Source: Acidobacteriota bacterium (lineage in GTDB: Bacteria > Actinomycetota > Acidimicrobiia > Spongiisociales > UBA5794). From it: a DNA stretch of 64,000 bases. Of the stretch, positions 16,921 to 30,573 are shown piece after piece. Positions within the stretch are counted from its first letter, which is position 1, and every line of letters starts with the position of its first letter. The notes under the pieces are model-generated. The model was given only the letters and a program-made list of their open reading frames with translations, did not search any database and was not told where the DNA came from. The position numbers and the translations under genes were made by a program. The stretch covers positions 1 to 64,000 of the forward strand of contig JADFQA010000015.1 of assembly GCA_022562055.1 (NCBI GenBank), read 5' to 3'.

Positions 16921-17928
16921 ATGTCAACACCTCTGAGGCTTGCGATCGTCGGTGTGGGGAGGATGGGGGAGTTCCATGCCCGCATTCTCAATGAGCTCGA
17001 CCAGATTGATCTAGTCGCGATTGTCGACGGTCGGGCCGAGGTTGTCGAAAGGCTGGGGCGGGAACTTAACGTGGCGGCCCACGCCGCCATTGATGCGGTT
17101 CTCGATACGGACGATATCGAGGCTTTGCTCATCGCGACACCGACACCATCACACCCGAACATCGTGCGACAAGCGCTCGATGCGGGCAAACATGTTCTGT
17201 GCGAGAAGCCACTGGCGCTCGATCCCGTCGAAAGCACTGAGCTCGGAGATCTCGCTGCAACGTTGGGGTTGACTCTCCAAATTGGGTTCTGGCGGAGGTT
17301 CTCCCCGCCATGGGTGGCGGCAAGGCGGGCGTTGTCCGCCGGAGCGATCGGCGACCCGGTGATGATCCGGCTCAGCCAATGGGACGCCAATCCGCCGCCA
17401 CCGGAATTCTGCGATCCCGCAGTCAGCGGCGGCTTAGCGATCGACTGCGGTGTTCACGAATTCGACCTTGCAGAATGGTTCACGAATTCGCAAGTCACGT
17501 CGGTGTTCGGGCGAAACCTCCGGCTCGTCGACGAGGCGGTTGGCAGCTCCGGAGACGTCGACAATCTCGTCGCGATGCTCGATCTATCAAATGGTGTTGC
17601 CGCTACCGTCGATCTCAGCCGGAACAGCCGCTACGGCGACGATGTGCGCACTGAAATTCTCGGCTCTGAGGGTGCCTTGTTGATCGATTTGCTTCCCCAT
17701 GGTCAGACCCGGATCGCCACCGCATCCGGCACAAGCGTGCTTGCAGGTTCGGTCACGAACGACGCCACCGCTGCGGGTGTCGCCAACCAGGCCAAGGCGT
17801 TTGCTGCCCGGATAGCGGGCGAAGCCCTCGAAGTGCCGGGGGCTGCGGAGAGCGGCAGGGCTGTCGCGATCGGCAAGGCCGTGCAGCGTTCGGCTAGGAC
17901 GGGTCTTCCCGAGGGAGTGTCAGCCTGA
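16921..17928 (+). CDS. Gfo/Idh/MocA-family oxidoreductase (inositol/sugar dehydrogenase type), 335 aa
   Basis: An NAD(P)-dependent sugar or inositol dehydrogenase. RLAIVGVGRMGEFHARIL is the Rossmann GxGxxG motif, GKHVLCEKPLALD the EKP signature, and GGLAIDCGVHEFDLAEWF the catalytic D..H region. Similarity in layout suggests inositol 2-dehydrogenase relatives, but substrate cannot be fixed. It converges on the deacetylase gene with a 9-bp overlap at the stops. Starts ATG 16921 (MSTPLRLAIVG). Confidence 0.85.
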   Translation: MSTPLRLAIVGVGRMGEFHARILNELDQIDLVAIVDGRAEVVERLGRELNVAAHAAIDAVLDTDDIEALLIATPTPSHPNIVRQALDAGKHVLCEKPLALDPVESTELGDLAATLGLTLQIGFWRRFSPPWVAARRALSAGAIGDPVMIRLSQWDANPPPPEFCDPAVSGGLAIDCGVHEFDLAEWFTNSQVTSVFGRNLRLVDEAVGSSGDVDNLVAMLDLSNGVAATVDLSRNSRYGDDVRTEILGSEGALLIDLLPHGQTRIATASGTSVLAGSVTNDATAAGVANQAKAFAARIAGEALEVPGAAESGRAVAIGKAVQRSARTGLPEGVSA

Positions 17929-18792
17929 CGGGGTGGTGCCCCTGAGCCGGTCGCGAAAACCACGCATGCCGACAATGTCGATGCCCTGGTTGGCAAGCCA
18001 CTCCTGGAATGTCGCGTCGCGGAAGACCCTGTACTCGCCGATGCGCCAGGCAGCGTCTTTGGGGTGGACGGCCTCGATGTCTCCCGGCGCCGAACAGTGC
18101 AGCGACAAGTACGTGACGCCAGGCCCGACATCGGCAAGGCACTTCTTGAGCACCAATTCGTGGTCTGATCTGCCCCGGTGGATCAGCGGCATGAGAAAGG
18201 TATCGCCGACCGCGACACCATGCTTGGTCGCCCGTCTGCGGGCGGCTTCGAGTACCGCAATATCGACCTCTCCCAGCTTGACGGCCGCGAGCATGCTTGC
18301 AATGTCGCTGGCGAACAGCATCGGGAGGTTGAAATCGATAGCCAGGTCGACGGTGTGTTCGACAAATTCGGGTGCGAGCGCTGCGCCCATGTGATGGTCG
18401 AGATGCGTCACGTCGATCCCGTTGCTCATCGCCAAGTCCACCTGTCGGCGCATCTCTGCGGCAACCGCCACGGGGTCGGCCGAGTCTCGTAGCTCTCGCA
18501 CGGTCGGCCACATAAATCCAGTCGGGTCGAACAACCCGGTCGCCCGGTCTGTCGTTGACACCGGTCGCCACCGTGCCGCTGCCGACTCCGAAGTCAATGT
18601 CAGGTGTACTCCAAGGTCAAGGTCCTCGGCAGATGCGATCGATGCGACGTCGGCGAACCACATTGCAGGCACCATGACAGAGCCCGATGTAACCGCCCCA
18701 GAGGCGGCGAGTTGCACCATTGCTTTGTTGGCACCACTGGCGCACCCGAGGTCATCGACGTGAGGGATCAAGACCCTCCGTCGTTCGATCAC
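17920..18792 (-). CDS. YdjC/ChbG-family carbohydrate deacetylase, 290 aa
   Basis: The YdjC fold is recognisable from IPHVDDLGCASGANKAM (DD metal/catalytic motif), LDLGVHLTLTSE (first His) and VTHLDHHMGAALAPEF (HLDxH). The C-terminal TYLSLHCSAPGD is a further family motif. Members hydrolyse N-acetyl groups from oligosaccharides such as diacetylchitobiose. The start is GTG 18792, overlapping the stop of the SDR remnant (TTGTGATC), so they were one operon. A deacetylase between Gfo/Idh and SDR genes points to catabolism of a modified sugar. Confidence 0.8.
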   Translation of the reverse strand: MIERRRVLIPHVDDLGCASGANKAMVQLAASGAVTSGSVMVPAMWFADVASIASAEDLDLGVHLTLTSESAAARWRPVSTTDRATGLFDPTGFMWPTVRELRDSADPVAVAAEMRRQVDLAMSNGIDVTHLDHHMGAALAPEFVEHTVDLAIDFNLPMLFASDIASMLAAVKLGEVDIAVLEAARRRATKHGVAVGDTFLMPLIHRGRSDHELVLKKCLADVGPGVTYLSLHCSAPGDIEAVHPKDAAWRIGEYRVFRDATFQEWLANQGIDIVGMRGFRDRLRGTTPSG

Positions 18793-19084: not shown

Positions 19085-19924
19085 TCAGGGGACCTCATCT
19101 TGGCGCAGAGCAGGGGCGGGACCTGCGCCGATCACGGTTTGATCGAAATCGACAACCGCACCAGTCATCATGCCAGAGTCGTCCGAGGCAAGGAACGCAA
19201 CCGCCGATGCTACTTCGTCGACTTTGAGCAATCTGCCAAATGGCGTTTTCGCCTCCGCGTCGGTCAGCCATCCGTCGTCAGCGCCGTGAAACCGCTTCTG
19301 TGTGGCGTCTTCGCCTGGTGTGTCCATCCAGCCGATCATGAGTGTGTTGATGCGGATGCGGTCCCTCGACATTGCGTATCCGACGCTTTTGGTGAACGGG
19401 ATAAGCGCGCCCTTCGAGATCGAGTACGGCGTGAGTGTCGGCGGTCCCCCATAGCCAGTGACCGAGCCGATGTTGACAATGGTGCCTGGAGTCCCCTCCC
19501 GCCGCATGATCTTGATGGCGCCTTGGGTCAGGAAAAACGGCGCCCGGACATTGACGTTCATGATCGTGTCCCACAGCTCACGGTCGGTATCGATGATCGT
19601 TCCGCGCAGCGGGGTACCGGCAGAATTGACAAGAACATCGATTCGTCCAAATGCTTCATCGGTTTGTTCGATGAGCCGAAGGACGTCGTCGTGGTTGCCA
19701 AGGTCAGCGCGCACAAACACGGCGCGAGTCCCGAGCGCCTCGAGTTCCGCTACCACGGACGGTCCCCGGGTCTGGTCCCGTCCGGTGACGACGATGCCGC
19801 TGGCCCCTTCCGACGCAAATCTGCGGGCTATCGCGGCTCCGAGTCCTTGGGTGCTCCCGGTGACCAGCGCGACCTTGGTTGCGAACCTCTGTTGCAGTGC
19901 GGGAACGGGTTGGCTAGTTGTCAT
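19085..19924 (-). CDS. Short-chain dehydrogenase/reductase, 279 aa
   Basis: A classical SDR: VALVTGSTQGLGAAIARRF is the cofactor site, LVNSAGTPLRG the NAG motif, IVNIGSVTGYGG supplies the catalytic Ser, and YSISKGALIPFTKS the YxxxK dyad. Length and architecture are intact. It is 13 bp downstream of the Gfo/Idh gene at 19938-21113 and upstream of the SDR remnant and deacetylase. It likely oxidises a sugar or polyol intermediate in the same pathway; substrate unknown. Confidence 0.85.
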   Translation of the reverse strand: MTTSQPVPALQQRFATKVALVTGSTQGLGAAIARRFASEGASGIVVTGRDQTRGPSVVAELEALGTRAVFVRADLGNHDDVLRLIEQTDEAFGRIDVLVNSAGTPLRGTIIDTDRELWDTIMNVNVRAPFFLTQGAIKIMRREGTPGTIVNIGSVTGYGGPPTLTPYSISKGALIPFTKSVGYAMSRDRIRINTLMIGWMDTPGEDATQKRFHGADDGWLTDAEAKTPFGRLLKVDEVASAVAFLASDDSGMMTGAVVDFDQTVIGAGPAPALRQDEVP

Positions 19925-19937
19925 GGGACGCCCTTAT

Positions 19938-21113
19938 CTATTCGATCGTGAGGTTGATCACGGATTCCCACCCGTCGGACTCCCAAGATCGGACCATCGC
20001 GTCGAGCACGCTGGCCACGGCGACTGCGTGTTGCAGACCGGGGGAGTGCTGTTCACCAGCAGCAACCGACTTGAGAAACTCAAGGGCCTCGATCACCTTC
20101 ATAGCCTCAAAACCGATCGAGTTGCCTCCTCCTGGGACGAAGTTTGACTGGTGGGGAAGTCCGTCGCCTGCCAACACCTGAATGAATCCATCGGTCGGCT
20201 GTTCGTCTGGGAGGTAGAGCTTGAGTTGGTTCAGCGTCTCGTGATCCCACGATGCTGCCCCCTTCGAACCGTTCAGTTCGAACGCCATTGAGCTTTGCGG
20301 ACCAAAGATGGACCGGTCAGCTTCGAGCGTTCCTCGCACACCGTTCTCGAACTCGATCAGCGCCCCGACGTAGTCTTCGTTGGTGACGGCTCCTGTAGGG
20401 TCGTCTGGCGATCCCCGGTCGTAGTGGGTGCTGTTTCCGGGCACCGGCAGTGGGCGCTCCGTTACAAAAGTATTCTTCATAGACACGACCCGCTTGATGG
20501 GGCCCGCTAGATGCAGCGCTAGGTCGACCGCATGAGACATGATGTCCATGAGAGCGCCGTATCCGGCTTCTTCTTGCAGGAACCGCCAGGACAGCACGCC
20601 GAGTCGGTCTCTGCCGTACATGGAAAAAAACCGGCCCCGGTAGTGGGTCAAATCGCCGAGCCTGCCTTCTTCGATGAGCTGCTTGGTGTATTGCACCATC
20701 GGAGCCCATCGATAGTTGTAGCCGCAGCCCGCGATGACACCCGCCTTGCGCGCGGCTAGTTCGATGGCCGCGGTCTCGGCAGGGCTTGACCCAACGGGCT
20801 TCTCACAGAACAGATGTTTTCCGGCGGCTGCGGCTGCCTCTGCAATTTCGCGGTGAAAGGATGTCGGCGCTGTGATGTCGATCACGTCGATGTCAGGTCG
20901 GGCGACGAGCTCTCGCCAGTCGGCCGTCCCTGATTCGAAGCCGAAGTTGTCGAGTGCCAACTTCACACGGTCTGGAGCATTGTCGGCCACTGCGACGAGT
21001 CTCGGCATGATCCCGGCTTCGGGGAAGTAGGTCGGGATCGAACGATACGAGCGTGAATGAGATTGACCCATCCATCCAAAACCAACGAGTCCGATACGGA
21101 TCTCTTCGGTCAT
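19938..21113 (-). CDS. Gfo/Idh/MocA-family oxidoreductase, 391 aa
   Basis: Start ATG 21113 (MTEEIRIGLVGFGWMGQSHS) has GGAG upstream; an in-frame extension is rejected. GFGWMGQSH is the nucleotide-binding motif, GKHLFCEKPVGSS the EKP motif, and GALMDIMSHAVDLALHL the catalytic D/H region. The C-terminus includes SIGFEAMKVIEALEFL, usual for this family's large members. It is the first gene of a minus-strand cluster (oxidoreductase, SDR, SDR remnant, deacetylase) diverging from the xylF-like gene. The 14-bp palindrome at 21224 lies 110 bp upstream, so both directions may share control. Confidence 0.85.
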   Translation of the reverse strand: MTEEIRIGLVGFGWMGQSHSRSYRSIPTYFPEAGIMPRLVAVADNAPDRVKLALDNFGFESGTADWRELVARPDIDVIDITAPTSFHREIAEAAAAAGKHLFCEKPVGSSPAETAAIELAARKAGVIAGCGYNYRWAPMVQYTKQLIEEGRLGDLTHYRGRFFSMYGRDRLGVLSWRFLQEEAGYGALMDIMSHAVDLALHLAGPIKRVVSMKNTFVTERPLPVPGNSTHYDRGSPDDPTGAVTNEDYVGALIEFENGVRGTLEADRSIFGPQSSMAFELNGSKGAASWDHETLNQLKLYLPDEQPTDGFIQVLAGDGLPHQSNFVPGGGNSIGFEAMKVIEALEFLKSVAAGEQHSPGLQHAVAVASVLDAMVRSWESDGWESVINLTIE

Positions 21114-21223
21114 ATGGTGACACTCCTTCGATCGTCGAACCCTGCAATGGCCGACTACGACCTGCTTGACCACTCACCGACCCGCTTCCTCGCGGTGGGC
21201 GAACTCACCCTAGCAACAATTTA

Positions 21224-21237
21224 TTGGAACGTTCCAA
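21224..21237. promoter_or_regulatory. LacI-type operator O1
   Basis: TTGGAACGTTCCAA is a perfect palindrome with the central CG typical of LacI/GalR-family sites. It sits in the 524-bp gap between divergent sugar genes, closer to the Gfo/Idh gene. An identical site is at 21515. Confidence 0.8.
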
Positions 21238-21514
21238 CAAAAATCGAAGTTCGTTCCCGCCTAGCAAGAACTGGGCGCCGCCTTCTCGGGCGTTCAGCGA
21301 GTTCCCCAGAACTCGACTACTTGCAGGTTGTGCGTCTTTCGCTCAAGTAGTTACCGCCGTCGTAGACGTCGTGGCATCACTCCGGCCTTCGTCTTATGTG
21401 GTCCGGCTGGCGTTTCGGTCACGGCTCGGTCGGTCTGGTCCGCAGTTCGTTCTAGATTCGATCTTGATCGTGCTTGACGGCTGGCTCTCTACGCGGTTAC
21501 GCTCCGATTCTATT

Positions 21515-21528
21515 GGAACGTTCCAACC
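21515..21528. promoter_or_regulatory. LacI-type operator O2
   Basis: Identical TTGGAACGTTCCAA palindrome (also ATTGGAACGTTCCAACxxG context shared with O1), 291 bp from O1 and 110 bp upstream of the xylF-like ATG. Two operators at this spacing could support DNA looping. No LacI-family gene is encoded in this window. Confidence 0.8.
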
Positions 21529-21637: not shown

Positions 21638-22681
21638 ATGAAACGGACAAGACTATTCGCAGTCGCCGTTGTACTTTTGCTTGTGGCTGCCGCGTGCAGC
21701 AGTGACAGCGGAGATACAACAACCAGCGGTGCCAGCGGAGATACAACGACGACGGCTGGCGCTGACGGTGGCGACGGAACGACGACAACAACCGAGACCG
21801 TTACACTCAGTCAGGGTTCAGACCTGACGTTCTACATGGTTACGCACGCCGACGACGGCACGTTCTGGTCAGTCGTTAAGCGCGGCGCAGAGGATGCTGC
21901 CAAGGCTGTTGGTGTGAAGCTCGTGTGGAGCCCATCTTTCAACGATCCTGAGAAGCAGGTCCAGGACATCGAAGCCGCAATCGCGGCCGGTGCTGACGGA
22001 CTTGGTGTTTCGTTGGCAGCCCCTGAAGCGGTTGGTCCAGCAGCGAAGGCGGCCGCTGATGCGGGAATTCCGCTCTACACGATCAACTCTGGTGTAAACC
22101 AGTACAAAGATCTTGGCGCTACGACGCACGTCGGTCAGACCGAGGTTGTGGCCGGTAACGGCGCAGGTGAGTTCTTTAACGACCTCGGCGCAACCACGGT
22201 GTTGTGTGCTCGTCAAGAGCAGGGCAATGTCGGGCTCGAGGAGCGCTGCCAAGGTCTCGGCGAGACGTTCAGCGGCACCGTGATCTCAGAGTTCGTCGGT
22301 GGCGATGATGACCCAACAGGCCAAGAGGCCTCGATTTCTGCGTTGCTCCTTGCAAACCCTGAAATCGATGGTGTTCTGGGCACGGGTCCGAACATCGCCG
22401 TGCGTGCGGTGAGCGCATGCACAACGGCTGGTCGTGACTGCTTCATCGGTGGATTCGACATCTCGAACGACATCATTGCAGCCATGGAAGCCGGCGACGT
22501 TGACTTCACGGTCGATCAGCAGCAGTACCTCCAGGGGTACCTGCCGATCATCCTGATGTTCCTTGAGGTCACAAACCTCAACACCGCTGGTGGCGGTCTG
22601 CCGATCCTCACGGGTCCAGGATTCGTTACCAAAGACAACGTTGGCGAAGTGAAGGCTCTCGTTAACGCTGGCACCCGGTAA
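21638..22681 (+). CDS. xylF: Sugar ABC transporter substrate-binding lipoprotein (xylose type), 347 aa
   Basis: ATG 21638 follows GAGAAGG. A signal peptide with lipobox (LFAVAVVLLLVAAACSSDSG) and a Thr/Gly linker lead to a periplasmic-binding-protein-like fold of the ribose/xylose group (DLTFYMVTHADDGTFWSVVK; QVQDIEAAIAAGADGLGVSL; VDQQQYLQGYLPIILMF). The earlier in-frame sequence covers operator O2 and is non-coding. It is the first gene of a transporter operon with xylH-like and xylG-like genes. Xylose specificity is inferred from the isomerase and kinase downstream; other sugars are possible. Confidence 0.85.
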   Translation: MKRTRLFAVAVVLLLVAAACSSDSGDTTTSGASGDTTTTAGADGGDGTTTTTETVTLSQGSDLTFYMVTHADDGTFWSVVKRGAEDAAKAVGVKLVWSPSFNDPEKQVQDIEAAIAAGADGLGVSLAAPEAVGPAAKAAADAGIPLYTINSGVNQYKDLGATTHVGQTEVVAGNGAGEFFNDLGATTVLCARQEQGNVGLEERCQGLGETFSGTVISEFVGGDDDPTGQEASISALLLANPEIDGVLGTGPNIAVRAVSACTTAGRDCFIGGFDISNDIIAAMEAGDVDFTVDQQQYLQGYLPIILMFLEVTNLNTAGGGLPILTGPGFVTKDNVGEVKALVNAGTR

Positions 22682-22844: not shown

Positions 22845-24740
22845 GTGAGCACATCAGAAGCTGCTGCGGTCGTTGATGCGGAAAAGATCGACGAGCGACT
22901 CGCTTATCGGGGGCCGGTCCAGCGTCTCCTAACGCGGCCTGAGATTGGAGCGTTGGTCGGGGCAGCGGTCATCTGGGTGTATTTCTGGCTCGTCAGCGAC
23001 GTGTTCGGCACCGCTGCCGGAACCGCAAACTTCCTCGACGTTTCGGCCACCCTCGGCATCATGGCGGTGGCAGTTTCCCTGCTGATGATCGGCGGCGAAT
23101 TCGACCTCTCGGCTGGTGCCATGACCGGGGCAACGGGAATCCTGGTGGTGCTGCTCGTCAAAGACAGGGGAGAATTTGGCGGCGCCGGATTATCGCTATT
23201 CATCGCCATCCCGCTCGTACTCATCTTTGCGCTGGCGATTGGATGGTTCAACGGTACCGTCGTGGAAAAGACGGGGCTGCCTAGTTTCATAGTGACGCTT
23301 GCAACGTTTTTCGTGCTAATCGGCGCCAAGCTCGGATTCGCCAAACTGTTCACTTCCAAGGTCATCGTGGAGGGACTCAACCAGGGCTCAGGGCATGCCT
23401 TCTGGTCGAATATTTTCGGTTCGGTGTGGACTCGAAACACCCACATACTCGACACGCGGGGGACCGTGTTTGGCGTCTTAATCATCGTCGGTGCGGCGGC
23501 GACCGTGTACGGCCTTCTCGAAATGTCGTACAGACGTAAGGCTTTAGAGGACTTCAGCGGCAGGATCGTTACGGCGGTCGGCCTCGCTGTCGCGGTCGGC
23601 GGCCTAATCGGACTCGTGTCCAGCGACGGAGTTTCGTCGAACTGGCTCTACGGGGGCGTTGCAGGTGCCGGCATGATCCTTGCGTCTCTCGGTGTCGGTA
23701 GCTGGCGATTCGAGAGGGTATCAGACCGGGGGTCATTTTCTCTCACAAGTTCTGGCAAACGCAACGTCGGTATCGGCCTCGCTGCGGTGATCGCCGGCAG
23801 CATCATCGCAATCGGTGTCGACTCAACCTCGCAGGATATTGTTGGTTTCTTGCTCACAGTTCAAGGTTTGCGGGCCGCGTTGTTTGCGGCGGGCGCCATT
23901 GCCGGCATTGCGCTGCCTCTGATGGTGGCCCGTGGTTCGGCCAAGGACTCGCCGATCACGCAGTTCGTGTTGACATCGGTCGTTTCATTGGTTCTTGTCG
24001 GTCTCGCCTTCCTGATCCAAAGCGAAGCAGCGTCGCGCAAGTTCCGCTCCGAGTTCTTTGCGGTATTGCTGCTCCTTGCCTTGGCTGTGTTCCTCGCCGG
24101 ACTCATGAGGCTCTTGTTTGTTGCACGCTCGAGTCAACACACGGCGGCCGACCGCCTTGGACGGACCGCCACTATGGCGGGACTATCGCTGATCGTGCTC
24201 TCGGTGGTTGTCAGGCTGATGTTTATGACAACAGAGGAGGCTGCAGCTACAAAAGCAGTGTTCAACTACCGTGTTTCGATTCTGTGGTTCGTCGGGTTTG
24301 CGGTGATCGCGGGACTCGTTTCGATGCGGACGAGGTTTGGCAACTGGACATTTGCGGTTGGCGGCAACAAAAAGGCCGCCCGCGAGGTCGGTGTCCCGGC
24401 AGCACGGACAAAAACGATCCTTTTCATGACGGTCTCGGTCGCTGCCTTTGTTGTCGGCATGTTGTTGGCATTCAGACTGAACTCTGTGCAGGCGAGCGTG
24501 GGAGACGGTCAGGAGTTCTTCTACATCATCGCCGCGGTCGTCGGCGGTAACTTGCTGACCGGTGGATACGGGTCTGTCGCCGGTGGTGCCCTCGGGGCCC
24601 TCATCATGGCAATGTCGTTTCAAGGGATTCCGTTCGCAGGATGGAACTCGGACTGGCGGTTCCTATTCGTCGGGGCGATCCTCTTACTTGCGGTCCTAGT
24701 CAATAACTTTGTGCGGAAGAAAGCTGAGGCTGCACGATGA
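22845..24740 (+). CDS. xylH: Sugar ABC transporter permease (XylH-like), 631 aa
   Basis: GTG 22845 follows GAAGGAAG. Many hydrophobic segments are visible. [17 protein letters not shown] is the RbsC/XylH-family signature near the N-terminus, and the C-terminal [20 protein letters not shown] then [10 protein letters not shown] is equally characteristic. At 631 residues it is longer than usual XylH (about 400); the middle, about residues 190-430, holds extra membrane segments (two insert-like blocks, [14 protein letters not shown]- and [14 protein letters not shown]-type). It overlaps the ATPase gene by 4 bp (ATGA). Confidence 0.85.
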
Positions 24741-25600
24741 GCACACCACTGCTTGAGATGCGCAACATCTCGAAGTACTACGGAAACATCAACGCACTCC
24801 AGGGCATCACGACTTCGGTCCTCGCAGGCGAGGTTACGTGCGTGCTCGGTGACAACGGCGCAGGCAAGTCGACGTTAATTAAGATCCTTGCCGGCGCCCA
24901 CCAGCAGAGCGAGGGCGAGCTGCTTGTCGAGGGGAAAGAAGTGCACTTCGAGTCGCCTCGTGACGCTCTCGCGCTTGGCATCGCGACCGTCTATCAGGAC
25001 CTTGCTGTTGTTCCACTCATGTCTGTGTGGAGAAACTTCTTCCTCGGCGCCGAACCAACGAAGAGCTTCGGCCCGATCAAATGGATCGACAAGGCCAAGG
25101 CATCGCGCATTGCGAAAGAAGAGATGGCCAAGATGGGCATCGACATTCGTGACACTGAGCAGGCCGTCGGCACGCTCTCAGGTGGCGAGCGCCAGTCCGT
25201 CGCCATTGCACGCGCGGCCTACTTTGGTGCGAAGGTCCTGATCCTTGACGAGCCGACGTCGGCACTCGGCGTTAGACAGTCAGGGATGGTGCTCAAGTAC
25301 ATCATCGAGGCTCGCAACCGCGGGTTGGGCGTGATCTTTATCACCCACAACCCGAACCATGCGTACCCGGTGGGTGACCGGTTCCTCATCCTGAACCGCG
25401 GAAAGTCGATGGGTGACTTCCGCAAGGATGAGATCTCGAGAGACGAACTGATCATGATGATGGCGGGCGGCGCAGAACTCGAGGCACTTACAAAGGAGCT
25501 TGAGAAGGCCAGCGCCGACGACGAGGGTATGAAAAAGGTAGCAGCAGAGTTCGCAGAAGAAGTGCACGAACTCGAGCACCGCGCCGAGGATGCAGAGTGA
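24737..25600 (+). CDS. xylG: Sugar ABC transporter ATP-binding protein (XylG-like, single domain), 287 aa
   Basis: A single ABC domain: [16 protein letters not shown] (Walker A), [15 protein letters not shown] (signature), [12 protein letters not shown] (Walker B/D-loop), and [19 protein letters not shown] (H-loop). Unlike E. coli XylG or RbsA, which carry two tandem ABC domains over about 500 residues, this is the short form seen in actinobacterial xylose and fructose systems. The C-terminal tail is acidic and helical ([15 protein letters not shown]). Two copies would pair with the permease. Confidence 0.87.
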
Positions 25601-27692: not shown

Positions 27693-27817
27693 AGGCACCT
27701 CGTCGTGCAGCAACAGACATCGACGAAGGGTTTGCCCGCATGTATTCTCAGAGGAACGAGGCCTGGCACTCTGAAGATCTCAGCTTTGTGCAGTGGCCGT
27801 ATGGTGTACCGGAGTTG

Positions 27818-29155
27818 ATGATGATGACCGATTTCTTTACCGACGTTCCCAACCGAGTCGCATTTGCGGGCACGGACCCAGGCGACGGTCTGGGCTTTCG
27901 GGTATACGACCCGGACCGCATCATTGCGGGTCGCCGGATGGAAGACCATCTGCGGATAGCGGTCTGCTATTGGCACAGCTTCAACTGGCCAGGCAATGAC
28001 GTCTTTGGTGTTGGCACATTTGACCGACCGTGGCTGGAAGCGACCGATGACCCAATGGCGGCCGCGCGAGCAAAACAGAATGCCGCGTTCGAATTCTTCG
28101 AGAAGCTCGGCACTCCGTTTTACTGTTTCCACGATGTTGATATGGCCCCGCCGGGCGCCAGCCTCGATGAGTCACGGTCAAACCTCGCCATGATGGTTGA
28201 TCGTGCCGCCGAGAAACAGGCAGCGACGGGTGTCGGGCTGTTGTGGGGCACTGCGAACCTCTTCTCGCACCCGCGGTACGCCGCCGGTGCGGCGACGAAT
28301 CCAGATCCGGAGGTTTTCGCCCATGCAGCGGTTCAGGTCCGTGATGCGTTGAACGCTACACATGCGCTCGGCGGGCAAAACTATGTGCTGTGGGGCGGCC
28401 GCGAAGGGTATGAGACGCTGCTCAACACCGACATGAAACGTGAGAGCGACCAACTCGGGCGGTTCCTTGAGTTGGTTGCCGACCACAAACGCAACATTGG
28501 TTTCACGGGCGCGCTCCTCATCGAACCAAAACCGCAAGAGCCGACGAAACACCAGTACGACTATGACGTGGCCACTGTGCACGGGTTTCTGGAACGTTAC
28601 GACCTTGCGGGTGAATACAACGTGAACATCGAGGTGAACCACGCCACTCTTGCCGGACACTCGTTTCACCACGAGGTTGCGTACGCTGTCGACAACGGGA
28701 TATTCGGTAGTATCGATGCGAACCGGGGGGACCCCCAGAACGGGTGGGACACCGATCAGTTTCCCAATTCGGTCGATGAGCTGTCTCTCGGGCTGTTCGA
28801 GATCATCCGCGCCGGCGGATTCACCACCGGGGGTTTCAATTTCGACACCAAGCTGCGTCGTCAAAGCATGGACCGCATCGATCTCTTCCACGCACACATT
28901 GGGGGCATTGACACGCTCGCCCGTTCGCTGCTTGTCGCTGATGCTCTTATCACCGATGGTGCCCTCGACCGCGGACGTGCCGACCGTTACGCCGGCTGGA
29001 AGTCCGATCTTGGTCTGCTGATTTTCTCCGAGGAGGCAAGCCTCGACGTCATTGCACAAGAGACGGCTGCCGACGGTCTCGATCCGACGCCGGTGTCCGG
29101 ACACCAGGAACTGCTCGAAAACGAGGTCAACAGGGTCATCTGGTCCACGAAATGA
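27818..29155 (+). CDS. xylA: Xylose isomerase, 445 aa
   Basis: Converts D-xylose to D-xylulose. Motifs in order: [12 protein letters not shown] (catalytic His), [50 protein letters not shown] (metal Glu), [36 protein letters not shown] and [13 protein letters not shown]. The start lies at one of three consecutive ATGs (27818, 27821, 27824) just after GGAG; the longer frame extends into the inverted repeats. The protein is close to the usual 440 aa. It overlaps xylB by 4 bp. Confidence 0.92.
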
Positions 29156-30573
29156 CGTTGGTGGCAGGCGTCGACTCCTCGACACAGTCGACAAAGGTCG
29201 AGATCAGAGACGCAGCAACCGGTGAACTGGTGGCGACCGGTCGTGCGTCGCATCCGACGACCCAGCCGCCGATTAGCGAGCAGGACCCGGAGAGCTGGTG
29301 GGTTGCACTGTGCGAAGCCCTCGCCCAAGTCGCTGAGCATCTCGAACGTGTCGATGCAATATCCGTCGTTGCGCAACAGCACGGCCTGGTGTGTCTTGAC
29401 GGAGATGGCCTCCCTCTGCGTCCGGCGAAGCTGTGGAATGACACGACATCGGCACCGCAAGCAGCAAGGCTTGTCGAACAAATCGGTACAAAGGCGTGGG
29501 TTCAGGCGTGCGGGCTGGTACCTGTAGCTTCAATGACCATCACGAAACTTGCGTGGCTTGCGGACAACGAGCCGGACATCCTTGAGAAGACGGCATCTTT
29601 CATGCTGCCGCACGACTTTCTGACATTTCGGTTGACCGGAGAGCGCATCACGGACCGGGGTGACGCATCAGGTACGGGGTGGTGGTCGCCCCTCACCGGG
29701 GCCTACCAAGGCTCGCTGTTGGGTCTCGTCGTTGGCGATCCACGGAGCATCATTGACCGTTTGCCGCGGGTGCTCGGTCCGTGGGATTCGGCAGGTGAGG
29801 TCACCGGAATAGCTGCGGTAGAGACTGGTCTCCGCCTCGGGACGTCGGTCGCTTGCGGCACCGGTGACAACATGGGTGCTGCCTACGGCCTCGGACTCGA
29901 GCCCGGCGACCTTGTCATGTCGCTTGGCACGTCGGGGACGGTGTACGCGGTGAGCGAAAATGCGATAACCGATGCGAGCGGCGTCGTCGCCGGTTTCGCC
30001 GATGCAACAGGGAGGTATCTTCCGCTCGTTGCCACCCTCAATGCCACCCGCGTGACGGACACGGTTGCTGGCTGGCTTGCGGCCGACCAGCAAGAGTTCG
30101 CCCGCCTTGCCCTCGAAACGCTGCCCGCGCCGACCGTTGTCCTGAAACCGTATTTCGATGGCGAGAGGACACCGAACCTTCCCAATGCTAAGGGCTCGTT
30201 TTTCGGACTCGACAATCTCACGACTCGTGCCGACATTGCGGCTGCGGTTCATATCGGTGTCGTTTGCGGGCTGATGCACGGCATCGAAGCTCTCGCCGCG
30301 GCTGGCGTTGACACGGCAGGTCAGCTTCACCTCACGGGTGGTGGTGCCCGCTCGGCTGCCTTTCAACAATGGGTTGCCGATCTGTGGGGTCGACCGGTGG
30401 CTGTGCATTCCATCGGAGAATGCGCCGCAGCCGGTGCCTGTCGACAGGCTGCGGCTGTTGTCGAGGGGGTGGAGCCTCCGTGGCGACTGAACCCTGACTT
30501 AACCGTCGATCCCAGGCCCGATGTCGATGGCCAGAGCTACCGTCAGGCCTACGAAACCACCACGTCGCACTGA
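29152..30573 (+). CDS. xylB: Xylulokinase, 473 aa
   Basis: Phosphorylates D-xylulose to xylulose 5-phosphate. A FGGY-family sugar kinase: [15 protein letters not shown] (phosphate 1), [16 protein letters not shown] and [11 protein letters not shown] (sugar-binding, typical of XylB), [20 protein letters not shown] (hinge), and [20 protein letters not shown] then GRPV in the C-terminal ATPase lobe. It begins ATG 29152 inside the xylA stop and is co-translated with it. Its end is 6 bp from the end of the convergent synthetase gene. Confidence 0.92.

Follow-up and report, generated by a model that had tools for sequence, protein, structure and literature searches.

A pair of identical palindromes stands between two divergent operons in the 64-kb stretch of DNA analysed here (the window), raising the question of which regulator would read them and which compound the flanking genes serve. 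Our comparative sequence analysis suggests that both sites, hereafter O1 and O2, are very probably operators of a LacI-type repressor (IolR) encoded on another contig of the same genome (C21), and that the window holds a detached part of an inositol regulon. Since the operators match sites beside a LacI gene in the inositol (iol) cluster of C21, the window genes most likely import inositol and begin its breakdown, rather than serving xylose. This reading would replace a likely xylose annotation with an inositol assignment that can be tested, trace the missing regulator to a different contig and supply a clean operator, with promoter geometry that is conserved, for an actinobacterial family that has received little study. 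It would also name further likely regulon members (transaldolase-like, isopropylmalate-dehydrogenase-like and aldehyde dehydrogenase genes).

Paired putative operators between divergent operons

The motif TTGGAACGTTCCAA is a 14-bp even palindrome with a central CG. O1 (21224-21237), on the side of a Gfo/Idh oxidoreductase gene, and O2 (21513-21526), on the side of a substrate-binding-protein gene, are both exact palindromes with the same motif as on C21. The two identical copies described in an earlier note on this DNA are thus real, although they are spaced 289 bp apart from start to start rather than 291, and the second ends at 21526 rather than 21528. That note also placed one copy near each divergent start, and the gaps are indeed 110 bp from O1 to the Gfo/Idh ATG (21113, minus strand) and 111 bp from O2 to the binding-protein ATG (21638, plus strand). 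At up to two mismatches, the 64-kb window contained no match besides O1 and O2, where 0.19 would be expected by chance; two matches were reached in 1 of 100 shuffles.

A candidate regulator in the iol cluster of contig C21

The earlier note had proposed searching the genome for the motif and for a LacI gene next to one of its copies, and both searches lead to C21. The genome (2.93 Mb, 83 contigs, 97% complete) contains five exact copies of the motif and none of the backward-read pattern; besides O1 and O2, three are found on C21 (positions 21037, 21070 and 23172). A sixth site, with one mismatch, precedes a transaldolase-like gene (C21:26063). Matches with up to two mismatches numbered 14, against 6 for the backward control, and so two-mismatch matches are largely noise and were rejected as regulon members.

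Profile scores and gene content identify this part of C21 as a myo-inositol catabolic cluster. Its iolB (304.6 bits, cut-off 205), iolC (361.1 bits, cut-off 300) and iolD (841.5 bits, cut-off 715) score above their cut-offs, iolG (293.0 bits, cut-off 355) and an iolE-like gene (168.8 bits, cut-off 290) score below theirs, and the cluster also contains a Cgl0159-type protein and an aldehyde dehydrogenase. The iolA label is provisional, the translated frame having been judged by eye from features of that family. The sites at 21037 and 21070 lie between the divergent iolG and iolD genes, within a perfect tandem duplication offset by 33 bp (L020:15006-15084, on C21), and one operator copy there therefore arose by duplication. 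This offset corresponds to about three helical turns.

The site at 23172 precedes, by 25 bp, the start codon (ATG) of a LacI-family gene (G000:C21:23211-24230) inside the iol cluster. The 339-aa product of this gene matches PF00356 (50.8 bits, cut-off 27) and PF13377 (125.2 bits, cut-off 26.5). Operators on C21 thus precede the regulator's own gene as well as iol genes (21037, 21070, 23172 and 26063). A PF00356 profile search of the genome returned five LacI genes (two on C21 and one each on C46, C50 and C29) and none in the window or elsewhere on its contig. Because a motif copy stands before its own gene and the window's contig carries no LacI gene, the C21 protein is our candidate for the absent LacI regulator that the earlier note supposed to co-control both operons. 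A single LacI-type regulator encoded outside the window most likely controls both divergent operons.

Conservation across the family

Among 50 genomes of the window's family, several of them incomplete, the exact motif was present in 20 (backward control, 0/50), iolD in 22 and a relative of the C21 LacI protein (E <= 1e-60) in 23. Nineteen of the 20 motif-bearing genomes also contained iolD (Fisher p 9e-10) and 19 of 20 the LacI relative (Fisher p 5e-9), though these p-values are too small, since related genomes were treated as independent, and it is the counts that matter. Exceptions were genomes with the motif and no iolD (G034), with the motif and no LacI relative (G016), with iolD and no exact motif (G009, G024, G033) and with the LacI relative and no motif (G009, G026, G038, G049).

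We mapped genes by tblastn (E 1e-12) on 40 family regions, 34 of which held exact motif matches and 6 of which were taken for their binding-protein match alone. The queries comprised the aldehyde dehydrogenase and 18 other genes of the window and C21, and the resulting context counts rest on tblastn with these genes of a single genome. The 19 other motif-bearing genomes hold 40 exact sites, of which 30 fall in regions that also carry iol-type genes or window-gene orthologs; two of these 30 are at the edge of a contig, and for some the closest mapped gene is about 1 kb away. Of the remaining 10, 7 precede a further aldehyde dehydrogenase and 3 directly precede an isopropylmalate-dehydrogenase-like gene. 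In genus g7, the operator was seen before the aldehyde dehydrogenase at L071:6392, L075:9405, L076:1022, L080:2829, L083:9763, L087:5840 and L090:7927, and directly before the isopropylmalate-dehydrogenase-like gene at L072:9578, L077:8601 and L088:9842; both genes are likely extensions of the regulon in that genus. The transaldolase-like protein (PF00923) appears in the iol regulon of many relatives with an operator upstream (for example, L021:1163-2254 on C21, L070:7862 and L095:10071). To our knowledge, the transaldolase-like, isopropylmalate-dehydrogenase-like and second aldehyde dehydrogenase proteins are not part of the usual inositol pathway.

The iol clusters of relatives hold homologs of the window's Gfo/Idh oxidoreductase (71-75% in regions with iolD), of its short-chain dehydrogenase (55-61%) and of its ABC transporter, in keeping with the link between transporter and oxidoreductase that the earlier note had drawn. 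In L091 (genome G021), nearly all window-gene homologs occur in one stretch with iolD, iolG, iolB, the LacI gene and an operator. The same divergent Gfo/Idh and binding-protein pair occurs in L101 (G005), where each side carries a one-mismatch site and the two sites are 103 bp apart. There, the binding-protein gene starts 111 bp from its site, exactly as it does in the window, and the Gfo/Idh gene 52 bp from its own, compared with 110. In L105, the nearest named record (78%), one exact site lies between the pair and a three-mismatch site lies 112 bp away, and L100 (G002) carries close orthologs with no site at up to two mismatches.

The wider distribution was assessed on 80 named binding-protein loci, the best 80 of 585 confirmed, by tblastn at E 1e-15 and at least 90 bits. 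Flanks of 59 of these 80 contained iolB, iolC, iolD or a Cgl0159-type gene, a count from which the iolG and LacI queries were excluded because they matched paralogs, and 35 of the 80 contained iolD together with a homolog of the window's Gfo/Idh oxidoreductase at 45% or above. A site with at most one mismatch was present in only 5 of these best 80, and the exact motif is therefore mostly a feature of the window's family. Exact copies also occur in a Pontimonas sp. MAG (L174) and a Nanopelagicales MAG (L183). Among the same best 80 of 585, the named sequences closest to the binding protein come from Acidimicrobiia and other actinobacterial MAGs.

Promoter geometry and proposed mode of control

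The hexamer TANNNT is the actinobacterial form of the -10 element. We counted it at 40 offsets in the 150 oriented flanks of 76 sites, which have almost nothing in common beyond the ~14 bp of the motif. At 10, 11 and 12 bp beyond the operator it occurred in 29, 16 and 9 cases, compared with about 1.3 per offset in shuffles. In this total of 54 hits (against about 4 expected), a flank that carries the hexamer at 10 bp and again at 12 bp counts twice; at least one TANNNT at 10-12 bp was present in 48 of the 150 flanks (75 of the 76 sites, with L105 left out). Because the 10-12 bp range was picked once the counts at all offsets were known, the shuffling moved individual bases and the sites stem from related genomes, this excess should not be taken as a probability. 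In 28 flanks, a mapped gene starts on the side of the hexamer, namely iolD (9), LacI (7), the short-chain dehydrogenase (6), the Gfo/Idh oxidoreductase of the window, Gfo1 (3), a Gfo2-like gene (2) and iolB (1).

In the window, the hexamer TAGGGT (21207-21212, minus strand) lies 11 bp beyond O1, the family-wide position, and is the -10-like element of a predicted Gfo/Idh promoter. A -10-like hexamer at this distance places the operator over the -35 region, and repressor and RNA polymerase would therefore compete. No TANNNT was found at 10-12 bp from O2, nor, in any genome listed, at that distance in flanks facing iolG, the transaldolase-like gene or the binding protein, and a second promoter layout therefore exists. 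A scan with the plain sigma-70 consensus returned one site (minus strand, 21534-21507) against 0.7 expected, and this candidate was set aside as fitting neither operon. Upstream of the binding-protein gene, TTGACG (21474-21479) and TACGCT (21498-21503) look promoter-like by eye, and no promoter is claimed there.

We infer that the C21 LacI protein binds these sites, that it acts by repression and that inositol is the inducer. When inositol is lacking, an IolR dimer would occupy each operator and block both divergent promoters, on the Gfo/Idh side by covering the -35 region, and would thereby prevent synthesis of both the ABC importer (plus strand) and the Gfo/Idh and short-chain dehydrogenase pair (minus strand). 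Inositol or an early catabolite would release IolR, and the importer, the dehydrogenases and the iol operons of C21 would then be switched on together.

In a sub-variant of this explanation, which we consider unlikely, one repressor assembly bridges O1 and O2 in a loop and shuts both promoters. In favour of a loop, O1 and O2 are identical, and relatives often have a pair of sites between divergent genes. Against it, IolR-like proteins are 331-347 residues long and lack an extended tail, and pair spacing varies from 33 bp on C21 through 102-147 bp in relatives to 289 bp in the window. PMC3899939 assigns the E. coli tetramer tail to residues 340-357 and describes IpsA, which has no such tail, as dimeric. 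The short C-termini and varying spacing make separate dimers at each promoter likelier than a loop.

We see a very small chance that O1 and O2 are real operators read by another LacI protein of the genome, or shared by two. Five LacI genes are present in all, and our comparison of recognition regions covered those encoded on C21 (two) and C46. Against this, a copy of the motif stands at the promoter of the C21 candidate itself, whose recognition region (SKSLVS) is identical in 15 of 15 IolR-like proteins aligned, remaining constant among relatives that share the motif. The corresponding regions of the second C21 LacI (SRQTVS) and the C46 LacI (APSTVS) are both unlike it.

Predicted functions of the window genes

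The plus-strand operon encodes an ABC importer, whose binding protein (21638-22681) is predicted to bind inositol. Among solved structures, 4ru1 is the closest to it in sequence (E 2.9e-55; next best, 6.5e-20), and a model of the protein (51 sequences, mean pLDDT 89.1) aligned best with the same structure (Z 39.5, rmsd 1.7 over 287 residues; next structure, Z 32.2). The structure 4ru1 represents ACEI_1806 of Acidothermus cellulolyticus, named as a verified myo-inositol transporter in PMC10747050. It is thus the best match by both sequence and fold, at 38% identity, a level that does not fix which isomer the window protein binds. Homologs of the binding protein also occur in iol clusters. Against the rhizopine-type model NF052284 the protein scored 198.6 bits, below the cut-off of 420, and both it and Gfo1 fall below the curated cut-off of every NCBIfam model matched.

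The permease (22845-24740, plus strand; PF02653) is 631 aa long with a long insert, its conserved halves (about residues 16-193 and 474-630) being split by about 280 extra residues that appear hydrophobic by eye. This long form is shared along its length by L091, L099 and L105; in most other family regions, only the two permease halves match, close together. The ATPase (24737-25600, plus strand) has a single domain and is kept beside the permease in relatives.

On the minus strand, Gfo1 (19938-21113) resembles scyllo-inositol and levoglucosan dehydrogenases and has homologs beside iolD in relatives. It is about equally close to 6a3f (E 5.2e-74) and to the scyllo-inositol dehydrogenase 5ya8 (E 3.8e-70); 6a3f, labelled only as a putative dehydrogenase, we take to be levoglucosan dehydrogenase. 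Scores against the levoglucosan dehydrogenase model NF052479 (299.5 bits, cut-off 650) and the inositol 2-dehydrogenase IolG model TIGR04380 (96.6 bits, cut-off 355) were below cut-off. Because the inositol isomer accepted differs among related Gfo/Idh enzymes (PMC9603128), we name no single isomer for Gfo1. The short-chain dehydrogenase (19085-19924, minus strand; NF004847, 375.9 bits, cut-off 240), separated from Gfo1 by a 13-bp gap, is predicted to belong to the same operon, and in relatives operators lie directly upstream of orthologs.

Substrates are likewise inferred. We tentatively raise the possibility, itself rather doubtful, that the window is a separate regulon branch for another inositol (scyllo-inositol, or a rhizopine-type amino- or methyl-inositol) under the same IolR. 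The importer would then take up this compound, and the Gfo/Idh and short-chain dehydrogenases would convert it to the common keto-inositol of the iol pathway.

The earlier note had extended the transporter's link to a YdjC/ChbG-type deacetylase gene (17920-18792, minus strand; PF04794), an extension that our comparison does not support. The gene starts 292 bp past the dehydrogenase end, and homologs were seen in none of the 40 family regions and in one of the 80 named loci. Given this lack of conservation, it was rejected as a regulon member. Nor did we find support for acetylated sugars as the substrate, the evidence favouring inositol. At its end, the ChbG-type gene overlaps with a second iolG-like Gfo/Idh gene (16921-17928, plus strand; 236.3 bits, cut-off 355), and homologs of the two adjoin in L110 (5405 and 6418), near iol genes.

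About 2 kb beyond the importer lie genes for xylose isomerase (xylA, 631.6 bits, cut-off 533.25) and xylulokinase (xylB, 415 bits, cut-off 380.25; together 27740-30573), and the plus-strand operon could be a xylose importer feeding these enzymes, with operators that answer to xylose. An xylA- or xylB-like gene is also found near 7 of the best 80 of 585 named loci. We nonetheless regard this reading as highly improbable. No operator precedes xylA or xylB, as the window holds no further motif copy at up to two mismatches; the same motif marks the iol cluster on C21, 59 of those 80 loci have iol genes and the best match of the binding protein is 4ru1. The ATPase scored only 158.4 bits against XylG (TIGR02633, cut-off 723.65), a weak test given its single ATPase domain. 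The 4ru1 match, the iol contexts and the missing operator bear out the doubt that the earlier note had cast on a pure xylose role.

It is scarcely credible that O1 and O2 arose by chance or as a mobile repeat and lack any regulatory function: although two C21 copies do sit in a perfect 33-bp tandem duplication, the motif is found in 20 of 50 genomes and its backward control in none, the flanks of the 76 sites share almost nothing beyond ~14 bp, and promoter geometry at the operators is fixed.

Comparison with known inositol regulons

The motif string was not found in the main texts of the open-licence papers searched, which is weak evidence for its novelty, and the main text of PMC9430895 makes no mention of LacI or of an ABC transporter. 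LacI-family IolR regulons have been published in seven groups (PMC4052901, Ravcheev et al. 2014). As in that work, our case combines a LacI-type regulator of inositol genes, an even palindrome with a central CG and predicted autoregulation. The IolR sites reported there lie 30-140 bp before gene starts, a range that includes the 110 and 111 bp of the window. By these features, the present regulon appears to be a further LacI-type IolR regulon.

Also of the LacI type is IpsA of Corynebacterium and Mycobacterium, which PMC3899939 describes as released from DNA by its effector myo-inositol. Its targets there include an RbsB-like ABC importer, but IpsA is an activator of inositol synthesis (ino1), whereas the present regulator is encoded in a catabolic cluster. 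With LacI-type IolR regulons and a scattered inositol regulon in Caulobacter already published, the window adds a new example of a known regulon type. According to PMC2597717, a separate importer, dehydrogenase and iol operon of Caulobacter crescentus share the palindrome GGAA-N6-TTCC, similar to the arrangement proposed here, but their regulator is of the RpiR type and the half-sites are spaced differently.
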